Part shown: positions 2,843-42,533 of the stretch, piece after piece
How positions within the stretch are numbered: the stretch's first letter is position 1
How the letters are laid out: each line of letters opens with the position of its first letter
IMG/VR virus record: IMGVR_UViG_3300029908_000054
Span: 1-42,891 of that record
Source: a virus
Strand: one strand, 5' to 3'
Length of the DNA: 42,891 bases
Made by a program: the position numbers and the translations under genes
The notes under the pieces: generated by a model
The model's input: only the letters and a program-made list of their open reading frames with translations
Databases searched by the model: none
What the model was told of the DNA's origin: nothing

Positions 2843-3556
2843 TTATTTCTTACTTCCACATTTGGTAATACGATAATCATCCCAATCTGTATTCAACATT
2901 AAAATATCATTTTGTTTAAATCTTGATAACAATGATGTTGATATTTTACTTCTAAACTCAGTAGCGGTTAAATTTGTAACCACCATAGTCCACTTATTAC
3001 GTCTTGTGCGCTCATCAATTACCATGTAAAGAATACCACCAGTATAATCGCTATCTTGAATACCAAACTCATCAATTACTAAAAAATCGCAACGAATTAA
3101 ATAATTATAAATATCTTCATGTTTTATATATGTGCGATTAAGATTATAAAATAATATGTGGAATGCTGTCATATTATTTTGCAATGCTTGATTAATTAAC
3201 GCATAACCCATGTGAGTTTTACCGTTTCCAGTATTTCCGCACGCTAATATATTTTTATCATATTTATAAGACAATACTTTATTTTTAAAATCAATAGCTT
3301 TATTATTAGTAGGAACGTAATTATCGAAAGTACTATCCTTAGCTACAATATCTTCGTCTATATTAGCTTTTTTTTGTTTTTGTGCAAATATTTTACGACT
3401 ATTCTCAATCTCTTCTAATACTTCTTGCTCAATTTTGCATTTATAACAAGTTTTAGATGTGTTTTTTTCATCAATTCCGTGCTTTTCACACTCAAACAAT
3501 TTCAAAGAATATTTAATTTTATTAAATGCATCAATTAAATTTTGTGATACTTCCAT
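2843..3556 (-). CDS. DnaC-like helicase loader ATPase
   Basis: A 237-residue AAA+ ATPase of the DnaC/IstB type that loads the host replicative helicase onto phage DNA. An N-terminal zinc-binding motif is visible (C23, H26, C37, C40). The Walker A loop GNTGNGKT is at about 106-113 and Walker B is FLVIDEFG at about 155-162. VVTNL (sensor I) and a downstream SRF arginine (arginine-finger region) follow. Length is near that of E. coli DnaC (245). It starts one base after the stop of the initiator gene, the usual initiator-then-loader order in phage replication modules, with GAAGGGACA as ribosome site. Confidence 0.9.
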   Translation of the reverse strand: MEVSQNLIDAFNKIKYSLKLFECEKHGIDEKNTSKTCYKCKIEQEVLEEIENSRKIFAQKQKKANIDEDIVAKDSTFDNYVPTNNKAIDFKNKVLSYKYDKNILACGNTGNGKTHMGYALINQALQNNMTAFHILFYNLNRTYIKHEDIYNYLIRCDFLVIDEFGIQDSDYTGGILYMVIDERTRRNKWTMVVTNLTATEFRSKISTSLLSRFKQNDILMLNTDWDDYRITKCGSKK

Positions 3557-3557
3557 T

Positions 3558-4358
3558 TTATAATGTCCCTTCGTAAATTTTATTTGTTAAATCGAACAAT
3601 TGCTCTTGAGTCGTCGGAGAATTATGTATTTGTTTACTAAACATAAATGTTTCAATGTCACGTTTAAAATATGATAATTTAAGTTGCTGTCCAGTTTTGA
3701 TAACAAATGGATGATTACAAAAATTGCTGTATGCCTCTTTTAATTGATCTATCTCGTAACCTAAAGCTAAAATATTATTAATGTCTTTTTTACGATCAAG
3801 TGTCAACTGTATTTTAGTATTAGATACTTGTTTAATATGTTCAAATAATATATTTAAATTTTTACATTCTAAAAGTTTATTATTAGATGTTTTTAAATTA
3901 GTATGTTTATTATTAGTTATATTAGGATTGGTGGAATCCACCAAACAAGATTGGTTATTATAACCAATTGATTGGTTAAATTCACCAATCGATATATCCA
4001 AATTATCACAAATCGAATTGTCAATTTTAGTGGTATCGAATTGGCATAATTCTAAACCCTGTAACGTCAACGCATACCACTTGGTATGATCGTATTTTGA
4101 AGCATTATAATTACCAGTTGTTAATATACCAGCTTTAACTAATGTGTCTAATGCGCGTCGTAATTTATTTTCACTAATGTACGAAAATAACTTTTGCCAA
4201 GCAGAACGACTATTGTACATCCAATATAATCCATCATAAAAATGCTCGTTGTTGGCTATGTACTTTTGCGTCCAAAAAGATATATTTTGCAATAGAATAG
4301 CCTCTTCTATGCCGTATTGAACAGCTATATTTATATTAAAATAATGTATATTATTCAT
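3558..4358 (-). CDS. Replication initiator / replisome organiser (winged-helix)
   Basis: A 266-residue protein whose first 120 residues (INIAVQYGIEEAILLQNISFWTQ, LFSYISENKLRRALDTLVKAGILTTGNYN; quoted in parts) have the pattern of the winged-helix domain at the N-terminus of phage replisome organisers (lambda O/DnaD-like proteins). A polar linker of about 60 residues follows, then a helical C-terminal part (about 175-245) that probably contacts the helicase loader encoded next. The start is chosen by GGAGAAAAACC before the ATG. The start overlaps the stop of a 15-codon leader ORF and lies downstream of an attenuator-like RNA, so expression is probably controlled at transcription elongation and by coupling. 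Confidence 0.8.
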   Translation of the reverse strand: MNNIHYFNINIAVQYGIEEAILLQNISFWTQKYIANNEHFYDGLYWMYNSRSAWQKLFSYISENKLRRALDTLVKAGILTTGNYNASKYDHTKWYALTLQGLELCQFDTTKIDNSICDNLDISIGEFNQSIGYNNQSCLVDSTNPNITNNKHTNLKTSNNKLLECKNLNILFEHIKQVSNTKIQLTLDRKKDINNILALGYEIDQLKEAYSNFCNHPFVIKTGQQLKLSYFKRDIETFMFSKQIHNSPTTQEQLFDLTNKIYEGTL

Positions 4359-4410: not shown

Positions 4411-4495
4411 AATAAAAAACCCGTATAACAATGAGTGACGGTCATCGTAAATACGGGGGTGAAGTTAAAAATAACTTCATATAATTCTCCGTCAC
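4411..4495 (-). promoter_or_regulatory. Attenuator-like pseudoknot/terminator before the initiator gene
   Basis: Read on the minus strand: arm B GTGACGG (4495-4489); hairpin TGAAGTTA/TAACTTCA (4479-4460); terminator arm A CCCGTAT (4457-4451); arm B' CCGTCAC (4441-4435) inside the terminator loop; arm A' ATACGGG (4426-4420); then TTTTTTATT. B-B' and A-A' interleave, so the two stems form a pseudoknot or compete. A-A' plus the U-run is a textbook intrinsic terminator, so B-B' could act as antiterminator. The element sits between the 104-aa gene and the initiator. The late-operon leader at 40792-40869 has the same layout with different bases. Confidence 0.7.
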
Positions 4496-4541
4496 AGAAA
4501 ATTATGAAATTATTTCATATAACATTATATTATAAATTTAT

Positions 4542-4856
4542 TTAATATTCTTCTAAATATTCTTTTACAGCAGATTCAAAATGATTTTGGGCTATTTTAT
4601 ATAAATTATTTATATCGGTATCAGTATTTAATAAATCAATTACCCAAAAATAATCGTCATTACTTCTTGCAAATACCCAATACAACTTATATTCGTGATT
4701 GTTTTTTTCAATATGATAAACAGCACCGTAAATTCCATCTGCTACAATATCACCAATTTTATATGATTTTTCGTATATAAAAAAATCAATTTCGTTATAA
4801 AATTTATTTATATATTTTTGATCAACAATACGCCAATTCAATTGTTTAATTTTCAT
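4542..4856 (-). CDS. Hypothetical early protein (104 aa)
   Basis: A 104-residue protein, MKIKQLNWRI onwards, rich in aromatic residues and acidic in its second half (DDYFWVIDLLNTDTD). AAAGGTAAATT precedes the ATG. It overlaps the end of the upstream 75-aa gene by 11 bases, indicating an operon. No membrane segment. I do not recognise the family. Confidence 0.7.
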   Translation of the reverse strand: MKIKQLNWRIVDQKYINKFYNEIDFFIYEKSYKIGDIVADGIYGAVYHIEKNNHEYKLYWVFARSNDDYFWVIDLLNTDTDINNLYKIAQNHFESAVKEYLEEY

Positions 4857-7726: not shown

Positions 7727-7930
7727 ATGAGTAACAAAATCACACGTAAAGAAATTCAACTTGCTTATAAATGCGGGCACAAAGACTTTCATAAATTAGA
7801 TTTGTCAGGGTTGGATTTGTCTGATTTAGATTTGTCTGGATTAAATTTGTCAGGGGCGGATTTATCTAAAGCGGATTTATCTAAAGCGAATTTAGCTGGA
7901 GCGAATTTAAGTGGGGCTAAATTTAATTGA
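7727..7930 (+). CDS. Short pentapeptide-repeat protein (67 aa)
   Basis: The shortest of six paralogues. It has the common N-terminus MSNKITRKEIQLAYKCGH followed by LDLSGLDLS repeats and seven or so A(D/N)LXX units, ending GAKFN. The ribosome site is AAAAGGAATAAAA. Its last 25 bases and the first bases of the following spacer recur at the end of the next gene, which indicates tandem duplication. A 67-residue beta-helix would have only two or three coils, so it may act as a dimer or be a shortened copy. Confidence 0.85.
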   Translation: MSNKITRKEIQLAYKCGHKDFHKLDLSGLDLSDLDLSGLNLSGADLSKADLSKANLAGANLSGAKFN

Positions 7931-7955
7931 CAATTTATTAAAAAAGGAATAAAAC

Positions 7956-8399
7956 ATGAGTAACAAAATTACTCGTGATGAGATCAAATTAGCATATGAA
8001 TGCGGACATAGAGATTTTATTAAACTAGATTTGTCAGGGTTGGATTTGTCAGAATTAAATTTGGCTGGGGCGAATTTAATTAGAACAAATTTGTCAAAAA
8101 CATATTTATATAAAGTTAATTTGAAATGGTCTTATTTATCTGGAGCACATTTATCAAAAACCAATTTAAAAAAAGCAAATTTAGTTGGCGCGGATTTATC
8201 TTTTGCAATTTTATCTGAGGCGGATTTAATTGAAACGAATTTATTTGAGGCTAATTTAGCTTTTGCAAATTTATATAAAGCTAATTTATCTGGTGTGAAT
8301 TTAACTGGTGTGGTTTTAGCTGGGGCAAATTTATCTAAAGCTAATTTATCTGGGGCAAATTTAGTTGGCGCGGATTTAACTGGAGCTAAATTTAATTGA
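7956..8399 (+). CDS. Pentapeptide-repeat protein (147 aa)
   Basis: A paralogue with the shared N-terminus MSNKITRDEIKLAYECGH, then [14 protein letters not shown] and about 22 pentapeptide units of A(N/D)LXX, which should form a complete right-handed beta-helix. It lies 25 bp after the 67-aa copy. The two genes end with the same GAKFN and the same 3' DNA. The conserved charged N-terminal 25 residues outside the repeats are a family signature that could be the functional or partner-binding part. Confidence 0.9.
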   Translation: MSNKITRDEIKLAYECGHRDFIKLDLSGLDLSELNLAGANLIRTNLSKTYLYKVNLKWSYLSGAHLSKTNLKKANLVGADLSFAILSEADLIETNLFEANLAFANLYKANLSGVNLTGVVLAGANLSKANLSGANLVGADLTGAKFN

Positions 8400-8442
8400 C
8401 AATTTATTATTTTTTTAACAAATTTATTAAAGGTGATACAAC

Positions 8443-8673
8443 ATGTATAAATTAAATAAATTCGGAGAAAGTTTTAAAAAACAACTTAATCACGAAGAAC
8501 AAATTAAATTTAATAACGGAATTAAATTATTTAATACGCGTACAATTATTACTGAAAATAATTATATTAATTTTTTAAAAAATAATCGGTTAGCTAAATT
8601 TGGTATAACAGAAAACGGAACACGTGTTTATTCGTTATCTATTGAGTACTTTAATTGGGAAGATGATGTTTAA
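8443..8673 (+). CDS. Hypothetical protein (76 aa)
   Basis: A 76-residue protein MYKLNKFGESFKKQL onwards, polar, with a C-terminus rich in aromatic and acidic residues (SIEYFNWEDDV). AAAGGTGATACAAC precedes the ATG. Its end overlaps the inner-spanin start (ATGATG within its last codons), indicating translational coupling. I do not recognise it; the position before spanins is sometimes that of a holin or antiholin, but there is no membrane segment here. Confidence 0.65.
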   Translation: MYKLNKFGESFKKQLNHEEQIKFNNGIKLFNTRTIITENNYINFLKNNRLAKFGITENGTRVYSLSIEYFNWEDDV

Positions 8674-8983
8674 TAAAATATATTTTATGAGTGCTGTATT
8701 ATTAATTATAGCACTTTATACAACTTTTGTATGGCATATAGCTTCTAATCATACAGAAGCTCGTTATACAAAAAATACGATTAAACAAATGGCGATTAAT
8801 ATTAATAATCAGCAAGATATGTTAAATTTTATGAACCCTTTAGAAAATATGATTAATAATTATAATAAAAACATTAATAATAATTTTGAATCACAACAAA
8901 AAATTGTTAATTTAACAATTATAAATGATGATTTTATTCAATTAATTAACAAAGAATGGGGGATAGACAATGTTAGATTTTAA
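8666..8983 (+). CDS. Inner-membrane spanin (Rz-like)
   Basis: A 105-residue type II membrane protein: residues about 5-24 (IYFMSAVLLIIALYTTFVW) form one N-terminal transmembrane helix, and the rest is a polar, helical periplasmic domain. Its last 14 bases overlap the next gene, which encodes a lipoprotein. This arrangement is the two-component spanin pair (Rz/Rz1) that fuses inner and outer membranes at the last step of lysis. I chose the second ATG (8666), spaced from GGGAAG; 8663 is possible. The call depends on topology and the neighbour, as spanins diverge too far to recognise by sequence. Confidence 0.75.
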   Translation: MFNKIYFMSAVLLIIALYTTFVWHIASNHTEARYTKNTIKQMAININNQQDMLNFMNPLENMINNYNKNINNNFESQQKIVNLTIINDDFIQLINKEWGIDNVRF

Positions 8984-9251
8984 ATCTGCTATTACTTTGA
9001 CAATTATTATAATTATATGTTTATTATTTATAAATGGTTGTTCATCAATTCAATTTGTGGATAAACCGGTTATGCCGTATTTTTCTGCAACTTTATTACA
9101 AGAATGTAAACCAATGACATATTTAAAAAAAACTGATAATACACTGGGTAAAATTATGTTAATAACAGTTGAAAATGCTAACAAATATCATGAATGCGAA
9201 TTATTAAATCACGCTAAAAATGTAATAATATTAAAAGGTTATAAAAAATGA
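8970..9251 (+). CDS. Outer-membrane spanin lipoprotein (Rz1-like)
   Basis: A 93-residue precursor with a hydrophobic signal ([11 protein letters not shown]) and a lipobox INGC placing the lipidated Cys at position 24. The mature part begins [15 protein letters not shown], the Ser/Pro/Val-rich start typical of Rz1-type outer-membrane spanins, and has two further cysteines. It overlaps the inner-spanin gene by 14 bases and the following pentapeptide-repeat gene by 4. It would sit in the outer membrane and bind the inner spanin across the periplasm, which requires a Gram-negative host. Confidence 0.8.
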
Positions 9252-9517
9252 GTAACAAAATCACACGTGAAGAACTTATGTTAGCGTATGAATGCGGACA
9301 CAAAGACTTTAATAAATTAGATTTGTCAAGATTGGATTTGTCAGAATTAAATTTAATTGAAGCTAATTTAGCTGGAGCGAATTTATCTAAAGCGAATTTA
9401 TCTGGAGCTATTTTATTTGGGGCGAATTTAGTTGGTACGGATTTAGCTGGGGCAAATTTATCTAAAGCATATTTATTTAGGACAAATTTAACTAAAACTA
9501 TTTTTTCTGGAAAGTAA
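9248..9517 (+). CDS. Pentapeptide-repeat protein (89 aa)
   Basis: A paralogue with N-terminus [18 protein letters not shown] then about 13 A(N/D)LXX units, ending TIFSGK. Its start overlaps the stop of the outer-spanin gene (ATGA). Bases 9362-9445 are identical, save one, to 10264-10347 in the next paralogue, pointing to recent duplication or gene conversion. Placed between a spanin and a nuclease gene in the same operon. Confidence 0.88.
9362..9445 (+). repeat. 84-bp near-identical repeat, copy 1
   Basis: Differs from 10264-10347 by one base (GCTGGA versus GCTGGG). It encodes part of two pentapeptide-repeat proteins. Direct repeats like this can recombine and delete the segment between them. 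Confidence 0.9.
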
Positions 9518-9523
9518 AATTAA

Positions 9524-9889
9524 ATTAAAAAAGTATATGAATATCAAGAACAAAAAGCTTTGATACAATGGGCTAATCATTATAGCAAAATTATACCTGA
9601 ATTAGATTTATTAAACGCTTCTATGAACGGGGTTAAATTAACTAATGCGTTAGCCGGTAAAAGAGCAAAAGAATTAGGCATGAAAGCTGGATATCCAGAT
9701 TTATTTTTACCAGTGGCTAAACAAAACAAACATGGGTTATTTATAGAATTAAAAACTAAAACTGGTAAATTACAAATTAATCAAAAAGAATGGTTAAATA
9801 AGTTAAATGAACAGGGGTATATGGCTATTGTTTGCTATGGCCAAGATTCAGCGCGTAAAGAAATACTTAAATATTTGGGTTATACATAA
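9524..9889 (+). CDS. VRR-NUC domain nuclease
   Basis: About 121 residues forming a stand-alone VRR-NUC (virus-type replication-repair nuclease) domain of the PD-(D/E)XK fold. Visible are the N-terminal Glu helix (YEYQEQKALIQWAN), the loop GMKAGYPDLFL (catalytic Asp), FIELKTKTGK (E-x-K), and the QKEWLNKLNEQGY helix. Phage members cut branched DNA such as Holliday junctions. The only in-frame ATG/GTG/TTG near the domain start is a TTG at 9560, which would lose the conserved YEYQEQ helix; an ATT at 9524, spaced from GGAAAG, keeps it. Start therefore uncertain. Confidence 0.8.
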   Translation: MKKVYEYQEQKALIQWANHYSKIIPELDLLNASMNGVKLTNALAGKRAKELGMKAGYPDLFLPVAKQNKHGLFIELKTKTGKLQINQKEWLNKLNEQGYMAIVCYGQDSARKEILKYLGYT

Positions 9890-9895
9890 AATAAT

Positions 9896-9925
9896 TTGAC
9901 ATAATATACCCCAGTGTATTATAAT
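9896..9925 (+). promoter_or_regulatory. Plus-strand promoter with ATACCCCAGTGTAT core
   Basis: TTGACA, an 18-bp spacer containing ATACCCCAGTGTAT, then TATAAT. The spacer core is the exact reverse complement of the one at 42121-42150, yet both boxes are kept. It drives the pentapeptide-repeat gene at 9985 and probably the outer-membrane protein. Confidence 0.88.
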
Positions 9926-9984
9926 ATTGTCAGTGTTAAATTTTATTTAACATTGTTATTTTTAATATTTAAAAAGGATAAATT

Positions 9985-10389
9985 ATAAGTAATAAAATTA
10001 CACGTGAAGAACTTATGTTAGCGTATGAATGCGGGCACAAAGACTTTCATAAATTAGATTTGTCAGGTTTGGATTTGTCAGGATTAAATTTGTCTGGAAT
10101 TGGTTTATCTGAAGCGAATTTCATTGAAACTAATTTATATGGGGCAAATTTGTATGGAACAAATTTAGCTGGGGCGCAGTTAGATGGTGTTGATTTGTCA
10201 GGATTAAATTTGTCTGAAACGTATTTATTTGAGGCAAAATTATATCACGCTAATTTAGTTAAGGCTAATTTAGCTGGGGCGAATTTATCTAAAGCGAATT
10301 TATCTGGAGCTATTTTATTTGGGGCGAATTTAGTTGGTACGGATTTATTTGAAGCTATTTTAAAAAATACCATATTTGCAACTAATTAA
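9985..10389 (+). CDS. Pentapeptide-repeat protein with an ATA in place of the start codon
   Basis: A paralogue of 134 residues if read from position 9985. The shared N-terminus is present as (ATA)[17 protein letters not shown], with AAAAAGGATAAATT at the right distance, but the expected ATG is ATA. The first true ATG is ten codons later (10015) and would drop the conserved SNKITREEL, giving 124 residues. About 20 repeats follow. Either ATA is used as a weak start, the gene is poorly expressed, or there is an error or mutation at one base. Confidence 0.8.
   Translation: MSNKITREELMLAYECGHKDFHKLDLSGLDLSGLNLSGIGLSEANFIETNLYGANLYGTNLAGAQLDGVDLSGLNLSETYLFEAKLYHANLVKANLAGANLSKANLSGAILFGANLVGTDLFEAILKNTIFATN
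10264..10347 (+). repeat. 84-bp near-identical repeat, copy 2
   Basis: Second copy of the segment at 9362-9445, one mismatch in 84 bases. Lies within the pentapeptide-repeat gene at 9985-10389. Confidence 0.9.
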
Positions 10390-10430: not shown

Positions 10431-10982
10431 ATGAAAAAATTATTATTAACTACTTTAATTGCTAGTGGAACATTATGTCACGGTTTAGGAGTTGATGTAG
10501 GTATTGGTACAACTGGTTATGGTTTGGGAGTTACATTACCGATTGGGACATCTGATTTTAGCGTTAAATTAGGTGCTAGTCACATTCAATTTGACACAAA
10601 TGCAATTGATAATCACAATTTAGCAGTAAAATTGTTAACAGCGGATTTATTATTAGATTATAAACTTTTTGGAGGATTATCTGTAAATGCAGGTACATAT
10701 TACATTGATGGTGATGAAAAATTTACCCATCTTACTGTTTTAAAACAAGGCCAAAGCATTACTGATAATCACACATCATTTAGCGGGTTTCAACCTTACG
10801 CTGGTTTAAGTTATAAAGCTAATTTATATAAAGGTTGGTATATTGATACTGATTTGGGGGCTACAATGTTTCAAGGTAATAATGATATGATGAAAGTTAG
10901 CAGATATGGTGTTCAAGAAGAGAATACAGTATTTTCTAGTATTTATCCTGTTATGAAAGTTAATGTAGGTTTTGAGTTTTAA
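10431..10982 (+). CDS. Secreted outer-membrane beta-barrel protein (183 aa)
   Basis: A signal peptide is clear (MKKLLLTTLIASGTLCHG, cleavage near 18-20). The mature part has alternating hydrophobic strands rich in Gly and Tyr (for example YGLGVTLPIG, LSVNAGTYYIDG, FQPYAGLSYKANL, WYIDTDLGATMF) and ends VNVGFEF, with the terminal Phe that the Bam machinery reads as an outer-membrane signal. The size fits an eight-stranded barrel. It is flanked by its own terminator. Phage-encoded barrels can block superinfection or change surface properties of the host. No specific family recognised. Confidence 0.8.
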   Translation: MKKLLLTTLIASGTLCHGLGVDVGIGTTGYGLGVTLPIGTSDFSVKLGASHIQFDTNAIDNHNLAVKLLTADLLLDYKLFGGLSVNAGTYYIDGDEKFTHLTVLKQGQSITDNHTSFSGFQPYAGLSYKANLYKGWYIDTDLGATMFQGNNDMMKVSRYGVQEENTVFSSIYPVMKVNVGFEF

Positions 10983-34429: not shown

Positions 34430-35848
34430 TTAAACGTTATTATATAACCCAGTTAAAAAGAATTGTGCTTCAGGCATATATATTGCTGGAGCACCAGCCA
34501 AAGAAGCTACAACATCTATTCTATTAACAGTATCTGCATTATGTAAATTACGACTAAACACACCTGTAAACAATCCCATAGCAGGAGAATCCACATTAGG
34601 ATCAATTTCGTTATATGTTAAATGAAAAGCTCCATTTTGTCCGCCCATAGCCGTTAAATCTAACATAACATACATTTTACCGCGTGGCACAAAAAATTGT
34701 TGAGCTGAAGCTAAATTTGTTGCATCATTAGGAGTTGTTTGTGTAGTTCCATTTGAATTTTGTTGTACCCACACATCATCATCTGCTAATAACGGAAATT
34801 CAAAACTAGGTGCATAATATGCATTTAGCTCTTTTACCATATCACCTATTTGGACGGATAATTTTTTATTACCCAAAGAAGTACCCGCAGCCATCATTAA
34901 ATTAGTTACAGCTTTAACATTAGGATGATTCATCATTGCTTGTAGATCAGCACCATTACATACAATGCCTCTAATATATCTACGATATTTTAAAAATATT
35001 GGGTTATTTAAAATATTTGTAATAGCAATAAACGGAGTATAATAAGGATCAATAGAAGAATAAGTCACACTACCGTCTGCATTTAAAGTTCCCATAGATT
35101 CGTACATTGCAATATAATTACTTGATGGGATGTTACTATTAATAGCTGTGCCACCATAGATAAAAGAATTATTAAATAAAGCTTGATTTAATAAATATTT
35201 TTTACGTGTAATTGCTTGTACCACTAAATTTACTGTATTATATGCTAATAATTGACCTATACCGCGATCTGCTAATGTAATATTTCCACGTTGACGTGCA
35301 AACATAATGTCTTTACTACCTAACGAAGTTCTAGCACCCCAAAGACCAGGCTGATATTCTAAAACATAAGTGTCAAGAGGTCTAACGGTTGGTAAAGTTG
35401 AACTATCGCCACCAAATTCAGGTAAAATACCTGTATTTCCAACTATACGATCTAATACAACTTTATATTGTGGAACGGCTTTATCAGGGAATGCCATAGA
35501 TAATAACGTATCTTTTTCAATACTAGATCCGACTTCTTGCACAATCATATTTAAAGTACCAGCTGTCCAATTACCTAAAAATGGTGTGTTAGCATCATCA
35601 CTAGACAATTGAATACCTTCAATAGTTTTTTCACTAAATTCTAAACCTTCTGCAAGTTTTTGTAATTTATCAATTTTATTAGTTACATTACCATCTTTTA
35701 CAATTTTTGGTAAAGCTTCGCTAAAAGCTAAAGATTTTTCTGATATTTCATCAATTTGATTTTTAGCAACATGTTTATTCCAATTTGCATCCCATGATTG
35801 TTTAAAATTAAAAGGAATGTTGTTTATTTTATCTGTTTCGTAATTCAT
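34430..35848 (-). CDS. Major capsid protein
   Basis: A 472-residue protein in the capsid position, after the protease/scaffold and small head genes. The length is suitable for an HK97-fold subunit with an N-terminal delta or scaffold domain (residues 1-80, charged and helical: KLQKLAEGLEFSEKTIEGIQ). Central and C-terminal regions (GIVCNGADLQAMMNHPNVKA, KMYVMLDLTAMGGQNGAFHL) alternate strands and helices. It should be the most abundant virion protein. The exact family would need a profile search. Confidence 0.75.
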   Translation of the reverse strand: MNYETDKINNIPFNFKQSWDANWNKHVAKNQIDEISEKSLAFSEALPKIVKDGNVTNKIDKLQKLAEGLEFSEKTIEGIQLSSDDANTPFLGNWTAGTLNMIVQEVGSSIEKDTLLSMAFPDKAVPQYKVVLDRIVGNTGILPEFGGDSSTLPTVRPLDTYVLEYQPGLWGARTSLGSKDIMFARQRGNITLADRGIGQLLAYNTVNLVVQAITRKKYLLNQALFNNSFIYGGTAINSNIPSSNYIAMYESMGTLNADGSVTYSSIDPYYTPFIAITNILNNPIFLKYRRYIRGIVCNGADLQAMMNHPNVKAVTNLMMAAGTSLGNKKLSVQIGDMVKELNAYYAPSFEFPLLADDDVWVQQNSNGTTQTTPNDATNLASAQQFFVPRGKMYVMLDLTAMGGQNGAFHLTYNEIDPNVDSPAMGLFTGVFSRNLHNADTVNRIDVVASLAGAPAIYMPEAQFFLTGLYNNV

Positions 35849-40710: not shown

Positions 40711-40786
<76 letters not shown>

Positions 40787-40791
40787 ATACT

Positions 40792-40869
40792 AAAAAACAA
40801 AAACCCCGCTACAGTGAGAGAGGCGGGGTCTATAAAGTCATAAATGACTTATATGTTAACGTCTCTCAC
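40792..40869 (-). promoter_or_regulatory. Late-operon leader pseudoknot/terminator
   Basis: Minus strand: arm B GTGAGAGA (40869-40862); hairpin AAGTCA-TTTA-TGACTT (40850-40835); terminator arm A ACCCCGC (40829-40823); arm B' TCTCTCAC (40821-40814) inside the terminator loop; arm A' GCGGGGT (40809-40803), then TTTTGTTTTTT. The A-A' hairpin is a strong intrinsic terminator placed before the tRNA and the whole 29-kb late operon, so late transcription needs readthrough. B-B' interleaves with A-A'. Spacing B to A is 32 nt, against 31 in the replication leader. Confidence 0.75.
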
Positions 40870-40886
40870 CACGTTTAAATATTCTG

Positions 40887-40996: not shown

Positions 40997-41025
40997 ATTA
41001 TACATTATTTGTTGTCAAATGTCAA
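40997..41025 (-). promoter_or_regulatory. Late promoter, consensus
   Basis: Minus strand TTGACA, 17-bp spacer, TATAAT: both boxes match the sigma-70 consensus exactly. It reads to the structured leader, the terminator, the tRNA-Phe and terS, so it is the probable main late promoter, with regulation downstream by antitermination. Confidence 0.85.
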
Positions 41026-42150: not shown

Positions 42151-42182
42151 ACCGTTAATTAAAAAATAAAAAGAAATAAAAA

Positions 42183-42533
42183 ATGAGTAACAAAATCACA
42201 CGTGAAGAAATTGAACTAGCATATGAATGCGGACACAGAAACTTTATTAAACTAGATTTGTCAGAGTTGGATTTGTCAGAGTTGGATTTGTCAGGGGCGG
42301 ATTTAGAAAAGGCTAATTTAACTGGGGCTAATTTATTTGCGGCGAATTTATCTGAAGCTAATTTAAAAAAAGCAAATTTATCTGATGCATATTTATTTGG
42401 GGCTAATTTATCTAGAGCTAATTTGTCAAAAGCAAATTTATCTGGGGCTAATTTATCTTGGGCAACTTTAATTGACGTAAATTTATCTAAAACTAATTTA
42501 AATAACGCTATTTTATATTGCACATCATTTTAA
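42183..42533 (+). CDS. Pentapeptide-repeat protein (116 aa)
   Basis: Begins with the family N-terminus [18 protein letters not shown], then KLDLSELDLSELDLSGADLE and about 17 repeats of A(N/D)LXX, closing with NAILYCTSF. It has its own promoter (42121) and is followed at 42573 by a second promoter of the same design for the next paralogue. AAAAGAAATAAAA is the ribosome region. The protein should fold as a right-handed beta-helix. Confidence 0.9.
   Translation: MSNKITREEIELAYECGHRNFIKLDLSELDLSELDLSGADLEKANLTGANLFAANLSEANLKKANLSDAYLFGANLSRANLSKANLSGANLSWATLIDVNLSKTNLNNAILYCTSF

Follow-up and report, generated by a model that had tools for sequence, protein, structure and literature searches.

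The DNA analyzed here, called the window below, is the whole of a virus record of 42,891 bases with 28% GC. It carries a direct terminal repeat of 127 bases, and for this reason the record very probably represents a complete genome. Among its genes are tail-sheath-like, baseplate-wedge, portal and terminase genes, together with RecE/RecT-like recombination genes, and the replication initiator is located at the left. A conserved 472-aa protein (34430-35848, minus strand), with 60-72% identity across four relatives, is probably the major capsid protein; neither PHROG nor the isolate phage genomes provided a match for it. Genes for several pentapeptide-repeat proteins, their DNA containing numerous internal repeats, are found at 7727-10389 and 42155-42533, and the region 10431-10982 showed a weak match, below the cut-off, to the Legionella major outer membrane protein family (E=8e-4).

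Leaders of the replication and late operons

The replication initiation protein gene (3558-4358, minus strand; phrog_11233, E=8e-31), followed by a DnaC-like helicase loader (2843-3556), is preceded on its own strand by a structured leader. Between 4495 and 4420 we found an arm B, a hairpin, the terminator arm A, B', A' and a U-run, just as a sequence-only reading had described before the initiator. B (GUGACGG, 4489-4495) is the exact complement of B' (CCGUCAC, 4441-4435), and B' is the 7-nt apical loop of an intrinsic terminator hairpin (4420-4457) built by A (CCCGUAU, 4457-4451), A' (AUACGGG, 4426-4420) and an inner stem ACGAUGA/UCAUUGU, and followed by the U-run UUUUUUAUU (U6, 4411-4419). 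The arms claimed at first are real, but the element is longer than had been proposed, with a promoter-like site and an upstream hairpin, H1 (4515-4469), that has B in its loop. The arms of H1 are AAAUAAUUUCAUAAUUUUC (4515-4497) and GAGAAUUAUAUGAAGUUAUUU (4489-4469) and its 7-nt loop, UGUGACG (4496-4490), includes most of B; compared with random sites, the stem around B had a p value of 0.0025. The middle hairpin H2 (UGAAGUUAUUUUUAACUUCA, 4460-4479) overlaps with its 5' arm the outer 3' arm of H1, so that the full versions of both compete. Directly before H1 there is a sigma70-like promoter (4529-4557, minus strand), with -35 TTTAGA at 4557-4552, a 17-nt spacer and -10 TATAAT at 4534-4529, matching 10 of the 12 positions of the sigma70-like consensus. 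From the end of the terminator to the start codon of the initiator there are 62 nt, and no promoter-like site was seen in this interval on the minus strand. On the plus strand near the element two weak promoter-like sites (9/12) are found within 4504-4533.

The leader of the late operon (40870-40801, minus strand) has its parts in the same order. Behind a promoter-like site with a perfect 12/12 consensus match (TTGACA-17-TATAAT, 40997-41025, minus strand) come arm B (GGUGAGAGA, 40870-40862), lying in H1 (AACGU-GGUGAGAG-ACGUU, 40858-40875), then H2 (AAGUCAUUUAUGACUU, 40835-40850) and the terminator AGACCCCGC-CUCUCUCACUGUA-GCGGGGUUU (40801-40831), in which AGACCCCGC is A, GCGGGGUUU is A' and B' (UCUCUCAC, 40821-40814) is located in the loop. 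The arms of this H1 can be extended to 12 nt with two mismatches (AUAUUUAAACGU/ACGUUAACAUAU), but taken alone it is not significant (p=0.27). The long 5' part of this leader can, by direct reading, pair its 5' end GUAUGUUAAU with AUUAACAUAC just before H1. The first gene past the terminator, 15 nt away, is a tRNA-Phe(GAA) (40711-40786, minus strand), followed by the terminase-small-like and terminase large genes. The segment 41045-41265 (minus strand), immediately ahead of the late promoter, contains another promoter-like site and a sequence of ~180 nt ended by a terminator. It is a candidate phage small RNA, with a fold no better than that of shuffled sequences (z -1.26) and no Rfam match.

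The near-equal distance between B and A that had been noted for the two leaders was found again, with gaps of 31 nt in the early one and 30-32 nt in the late one. That their base sequences are unrelated holds for the elements as a whole, since their overall similarity was equaled by 399 of 5000 random windows, but not for the middle hairpins, where AAGUUAUUUUUAACUU and AAGUCAUUUAUGACUU match at 13 of 16 positions.

When both strands of the whole window were scanned for the B/A/B'/A'/U-run pattern, exactly two sites were returned, the early and the late leader. In 300 dinucleotide-preserving shuffles the strict pattern appeared 0.013 times per window and never twice in one window, so the shuffle control that had been named as able to overturn the idea did not reproduce it. 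An equally good B for the given terminator loop was found in 23 of 3000 random genomic 90-mers for the early leader and in 6 of 3000 for the late one.

Elements in related genomes

Using the portal protein we recovered relatives from IMG/VR with 58-69% identity, four of them as full-length contigs (G002, 3300038435_000067; G003, 3300034065_000046; G004, 3300035181_001114; G005, 3300045391_005803) with portal identities to the window of 58-65%. The five genomes have sizes between 42.9 and 50.7 kb, all with direct terminal repeats, and the non-coding share of each relative is only 5-7.5%. A profile search with the portals and the capsid protein added no genomes to those of the portal search, and no close relative of the window phage was found among the phage isolates and plasmids searched.

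The cleanest test is the scan of these four relatives with the pattern defined on the window, because they had no part in defining it. Five matches were obtained against 1.16 expected, all of them in leader gaps, and none of 150 shuffle rounds reached five. This recurrence supports, as far as it can be read from sequence, the proposal of a single RNA design gating two modules of the same phage. A second scanner, requiring H1, B:B' and the terminator, and with score thresholds set after the first relatives had been seen, gave nine elements in the five genomes at a score of at least 32 (0.05 expected per shuffle round) and five at a score of at least 36 (none in 100 shuffle rounds). A tenth element, G003 26306, has a weaker score but is well placed and was counted too. 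Two of the ten are the replication and late elements of the window; the eight contributed by the relatives, largely unrelated in sequence, are distributed as two in G002 (-40307 and -38642), two in G003 (+26306 and +29940), a single one in G004 (+41742) and three in G005 (-387, -42864 and -42400).

What is constant among the ten is the arrangement. B lies within the loop of H1 in all of them (Fisher p=3e-10 over the ten elements, with H1 individually not significant in two, the late leader of the window and G004), and B' is always confined to the terminator loop. The middle hairpin, considered at first a fixed part of the design, is not constant in the relatives; H1 takes that place. Between the end of B and the start of B' there are 37-47 nt in eight of the ten elements. 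In several of them B and B' are presented as exact apical loops of 6-7 nt, and for B', held by an inner stem, these include window early, the replication element of G002 and both of G003; in G003 26306, for example, AUUGUAG on a GUGC/GCAU stem faces CUACAAU on a CCAUUA/UAAUGG stem. Clear sequence homology was detected only between the late leaders of G002 and G004, and here the B:B' pairing shows a compensatory change, from GAAACGA/UCGUUUC to GAAACGG/CCGUUUC, beside which one flanking pair was lost in G004. In G005 (42280-43100, minus strand; L140 2280-3100) two late leaders are in tandem, with a common 5' module UAAUUAUAU..UCUCCAA..AUACUGUUAGCA and different H1 and terminator parts.

The position with respect to promoters and genes is also repeated. 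In every element at least five of the six bases of the -10 box agree with TATAAT, and in eight all six do. In seven its end is 25-33 nt before B, which places the beginning of H1 at about the first transcribed bases. In the remaining three (window late, G005 -42864 and G005 -42400) the leader is longer, 95-140 nt, and its 5' end can base-pair with a site immediately upstream of H1. Some 10-30 nt past the U-run there is a start codon in nine cases and a tRNA in one. This leaves no space for a further promoter, and the terminator must therefore be read through for expression of the initiator or the late genes. The genes behind the elements are replication initiators, replisome organisers, a helicase and the late operon; the leader of G005 -387 runs over the contig ends toward replication genes. 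All ten are, judging from their sequence, promoter-proximal terminators in a leader upstream of a gene, as in an intrinsic-terminator attenuator. That these were ordinary terminators of upstream operons with complementarity arisen by chance is very improbable: in the window an upstream operon, the one with the 104-aa gene, indeed stops shortly ahead of the early element, but the shuffle and real-genome controls, the constant place between promoter-like site and start codon and the early terminator-initiator interval devoid of a promoter all speak against it.

Outside this group the element was not encountered. No element scoring at least 31 was present in 20 other phage contigs (0.71 Mb), and a further 1.5 Mb, mostly GC-rich loci, gave by inspection only matches lacking the promoter-leader layout; the loop-upstream complements in the GC-rich loci were judged chance matches within coding DNA. 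Exact-sequence searches of IMG/VR with the early arms and with the shared middle hairpin returned only chance matches in coding DNA, and relatives collected by the replication initiator, the terminase or RecT did not have such a leader. A covariance model, which had been suggested as the way to extend the search, would come down to a hairpin plus a terminator, since the pairs that matter cross each other and the elements have unrelated sequences.

Predicted folding and a proposed choice between readthrough and termination

Growing transcripts were folded stepwise, taking the minimum free energy at each length with no kinetic simulation, and by means of ViennaRNA, which cannot score kissing contacts. 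For eight of the ten elements the predicted order was H1 (or an open start), then B:B', then the terminator together with H1. The B:B' stage is predicted to appear, with H1 open, once B' is out, and the switch to the terminator only within the last 1-9 nt of A'. An alternative fold excluding the terminator, such as an attenuator calls for, is thus predicted in these eight. The two G003 elements differ: their H1 persists, no nested B:B' is predicted, and a kissing contact would be the simpler picture for them. When the RNA is fully exposed, terminator plus H1 is the favored prediction for all ten.

The best reading of these data, which we consider reasonably probable, is that of a promoter-proximal, kinetic RNA attenuator, one copy before the replication operon and another before the late operon, in which B:B' controls readthrough. 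Its architecture, its statistical reality, its recurrence in the relatives and its placement between a promoter-like site and a gene are established at the sequence level; the steps that follow are our proposal. The transcript would start at or near H1, with B carried in the loop, and ~40 nt later an intrinsic terminator would follow with B' in its own loop. On leaving the RNA polymerase, B' would pair with B; H1 would be opened for this, giving a nested antiterminator, or the two loops would make a kissing contact. The spacings suggest that B' is free as the polymerase nears the U-run and that, at the point where the outcome is decided, B:B' is in competition with the closing of the terminator. 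If B:B' forms by then, closure of the terminator would be delayed or blocked and the polymerase would continue into the gene. If A' wins, the terminator would form, H1 would close again around B, and the RNA released would be a leader of ~100 nt (~190 nt from the late promoter). B:B' would in this way favor readthrough, with H1 holding B when the terminator wins, and the outcome might be set by polymerase speed, by a host or phage factor or by leader RNA acting in trans. The loop of H1 presenting B, the promoter directly before H1 and the possibility that B:B' is a kissing or transient antiterminator contact go beyond what the sequence-only reading had contained. No common small regulatory or antiterminator protein was found among the five genomes beyond virion-type genes and a VRR-NUC nuclease, an absence compatible with an RNA-only switch, though not proof of it.

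The same parts could act in the opposite sense. The exact 6-7-nt apical loops of B' on an inner stem (window early, the G002 replication element and both of G003) fit a contact compatible with a formed terminator, and B:B' could instead aid termination. B and B' would then kiss while the terminator is formed and stabilize it, and readthrough would need a factor or a competing RNA on one of the loops. That all ten elements keep B' within the terminator loop and B within the H1 loop, and that terminator plus H1 is predicted for every fully exposed RNA, agrees with this version as well. Several of the terminators, however, look strong unaided, with GC-rich stems and long U-runs, and the eight sets of prefixes that favor a nested B:B' excluding the terminator point the other way. 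We regard it as the less likely direction, although still worth serious consideration.

Another alternative would move the contact in trans, with the terminated leader, which has both loops, pairing with nascent leaders of other genome copies. Operon expression would then be tied to genome copy number, or a superinfecting relative would be blocked, in the manner of the antisense RNAs of pT181-type plasmids and of CI RNA in phage P4. Loops of this kind are well suited to start RNA-RNA pairing, and in pT181 and P4, too, the leader is found ahead of replication genes. Except for the homologous pair, there is hardly any cross-pairing among the B/B' sets of the ten elements, but random 7-mers would give equally low cross-pairing. 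Besides, since B and B' are complementary parts of a single RNA, they should meet much faster in cis, and we find the trans version unlikely.

The early leader also contains a short ORF of 12 codons, MKLFLTSPPYLR (4442-4480, minus strand), with an SD GGAG and a stop codon that abuts B'. A ribosome on it (4480-4442) would mask A and B', as in leader-peptide attenuation, and the ORF is direct from the sequence and has good SD spacing. Nevertheless, its SD lies in the H1 stem and an SD-led ORF is found in only one of the ten elements, the other SD-like match being a 5-codon ORF at the G004 promoter. As the nine other elements have no comparable ORF we treat it as incidental, and attenuation by a leader peptide as highly unlikely.

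Comparison with known systems

Searching all 4227 Rfam families, only the tRNA was found in the whole window at the gathering threshold, with weak matches near the elements far below it, in agreement with the earlier statement that no named class was recognized. Our literature searches did not find a description of such a leader element, and to our knowledge no known system has complementary loops on a terminator and on a hairpin that opens the same transcript. An attenuator is a known kind of regulation; it is the H1-loop/terminator-loop build that we have not found described.

The attenuators of pT181-type initiators, located in the replication-initiator leader, work by hairpin-loop kissing and by antiterminator/terminator alternatives (PMC3753616). 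The position in a replication-initiator leader, the proposed kissing of loops and the predicted antiterminator/terminator alternatives are shared with pT181 and pIP501. However, in the plasmids a separate antisense RNA supplies the partner of the loop, and the antiterminator sequence is part of a hairpin stem, whereas in the phage element the partner is the terminator loop of the same RNA, and pairing is with this loop and not with an arm. Pairing of the arm type was absent from the elements, except for a partial arm pairing in G005 -387. In the phage element no clear antisense promoter is seen, the plus-strand sites near the early leader being weak, and the late operon also has a copy. In the immunity of phage P4 the replication operon is silenced by premature termination, with pairing of complementary leader segments and a CI RNA (PMC4825925). 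In both cases RNA-RNA pairing of complementary leader segments would control early termination of a replication operon, but the P4 CI RNA is processed and acts on separate sites, while here the complement is within the terminator loop.

In lambda, the late promoter PR' is followed at once by a terminator (tR') that has to be passed, thanks to Q, a protein loaded at the DNA. The terminator right behind the late promoter is similar, but the phage element is an RNA structure and a Q-like gene was not identified. The put sites of HK022 are promoter-proximal structured RNAs that provide readthrough without a phage protein, processive on distant terminators and with their own conserved sequence. The phage element is likewise a promoter-proximal structured phage RNA, although its partner is the adjacent terminator and its sequence is free. 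ColE1 RNA I and RNA II have fully complementary 7-nt hairpin loops that control the replication primer by an intermolecular contact; the loops are alike, but ColE1 has no terminator switch.

Proteins such as N, Q or sigma factors usually set the timing of phage modules. In this uncultured group of contractile-tailed phages the replication and late operons are apparently gated by RNA, with the pairing kept and the sequence free. A more tentative idea, possible but more doubtful than the attenuator itself, is that they represent a class of sequence-independent phage RNA switches, with complementary loops by which a 5' hairpin and its neighboring terminator recognize each other, giving orthogonal timing to each operon with the host RNA polymerase alone. 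If so, such a class would escape sequence-based RNA searches. Its absence from lists of RNA families is explained by the free base sequence, only the pairing being kept, and similar elements may be overlooked elsewhere. The design also offers a compact programmable attenuator, in which any 7-nt loop pair could be used.

A different arrangement was observed in four other phage contigs with ~40% GC. They contain terminators with the loop UCGGGUU (L154, 12454-12436, minus strand; L155, 4356-4374, plus strand; L158, 10906-10888, minus strand; L164, 8561-8541, minus strand) and ACCCGA, the complement of the loop, 8-13 nt upstream. The stem varies while the pairing is kept, and we consider this a second, different case of a complement between a terminator loop and its upstream sequence.
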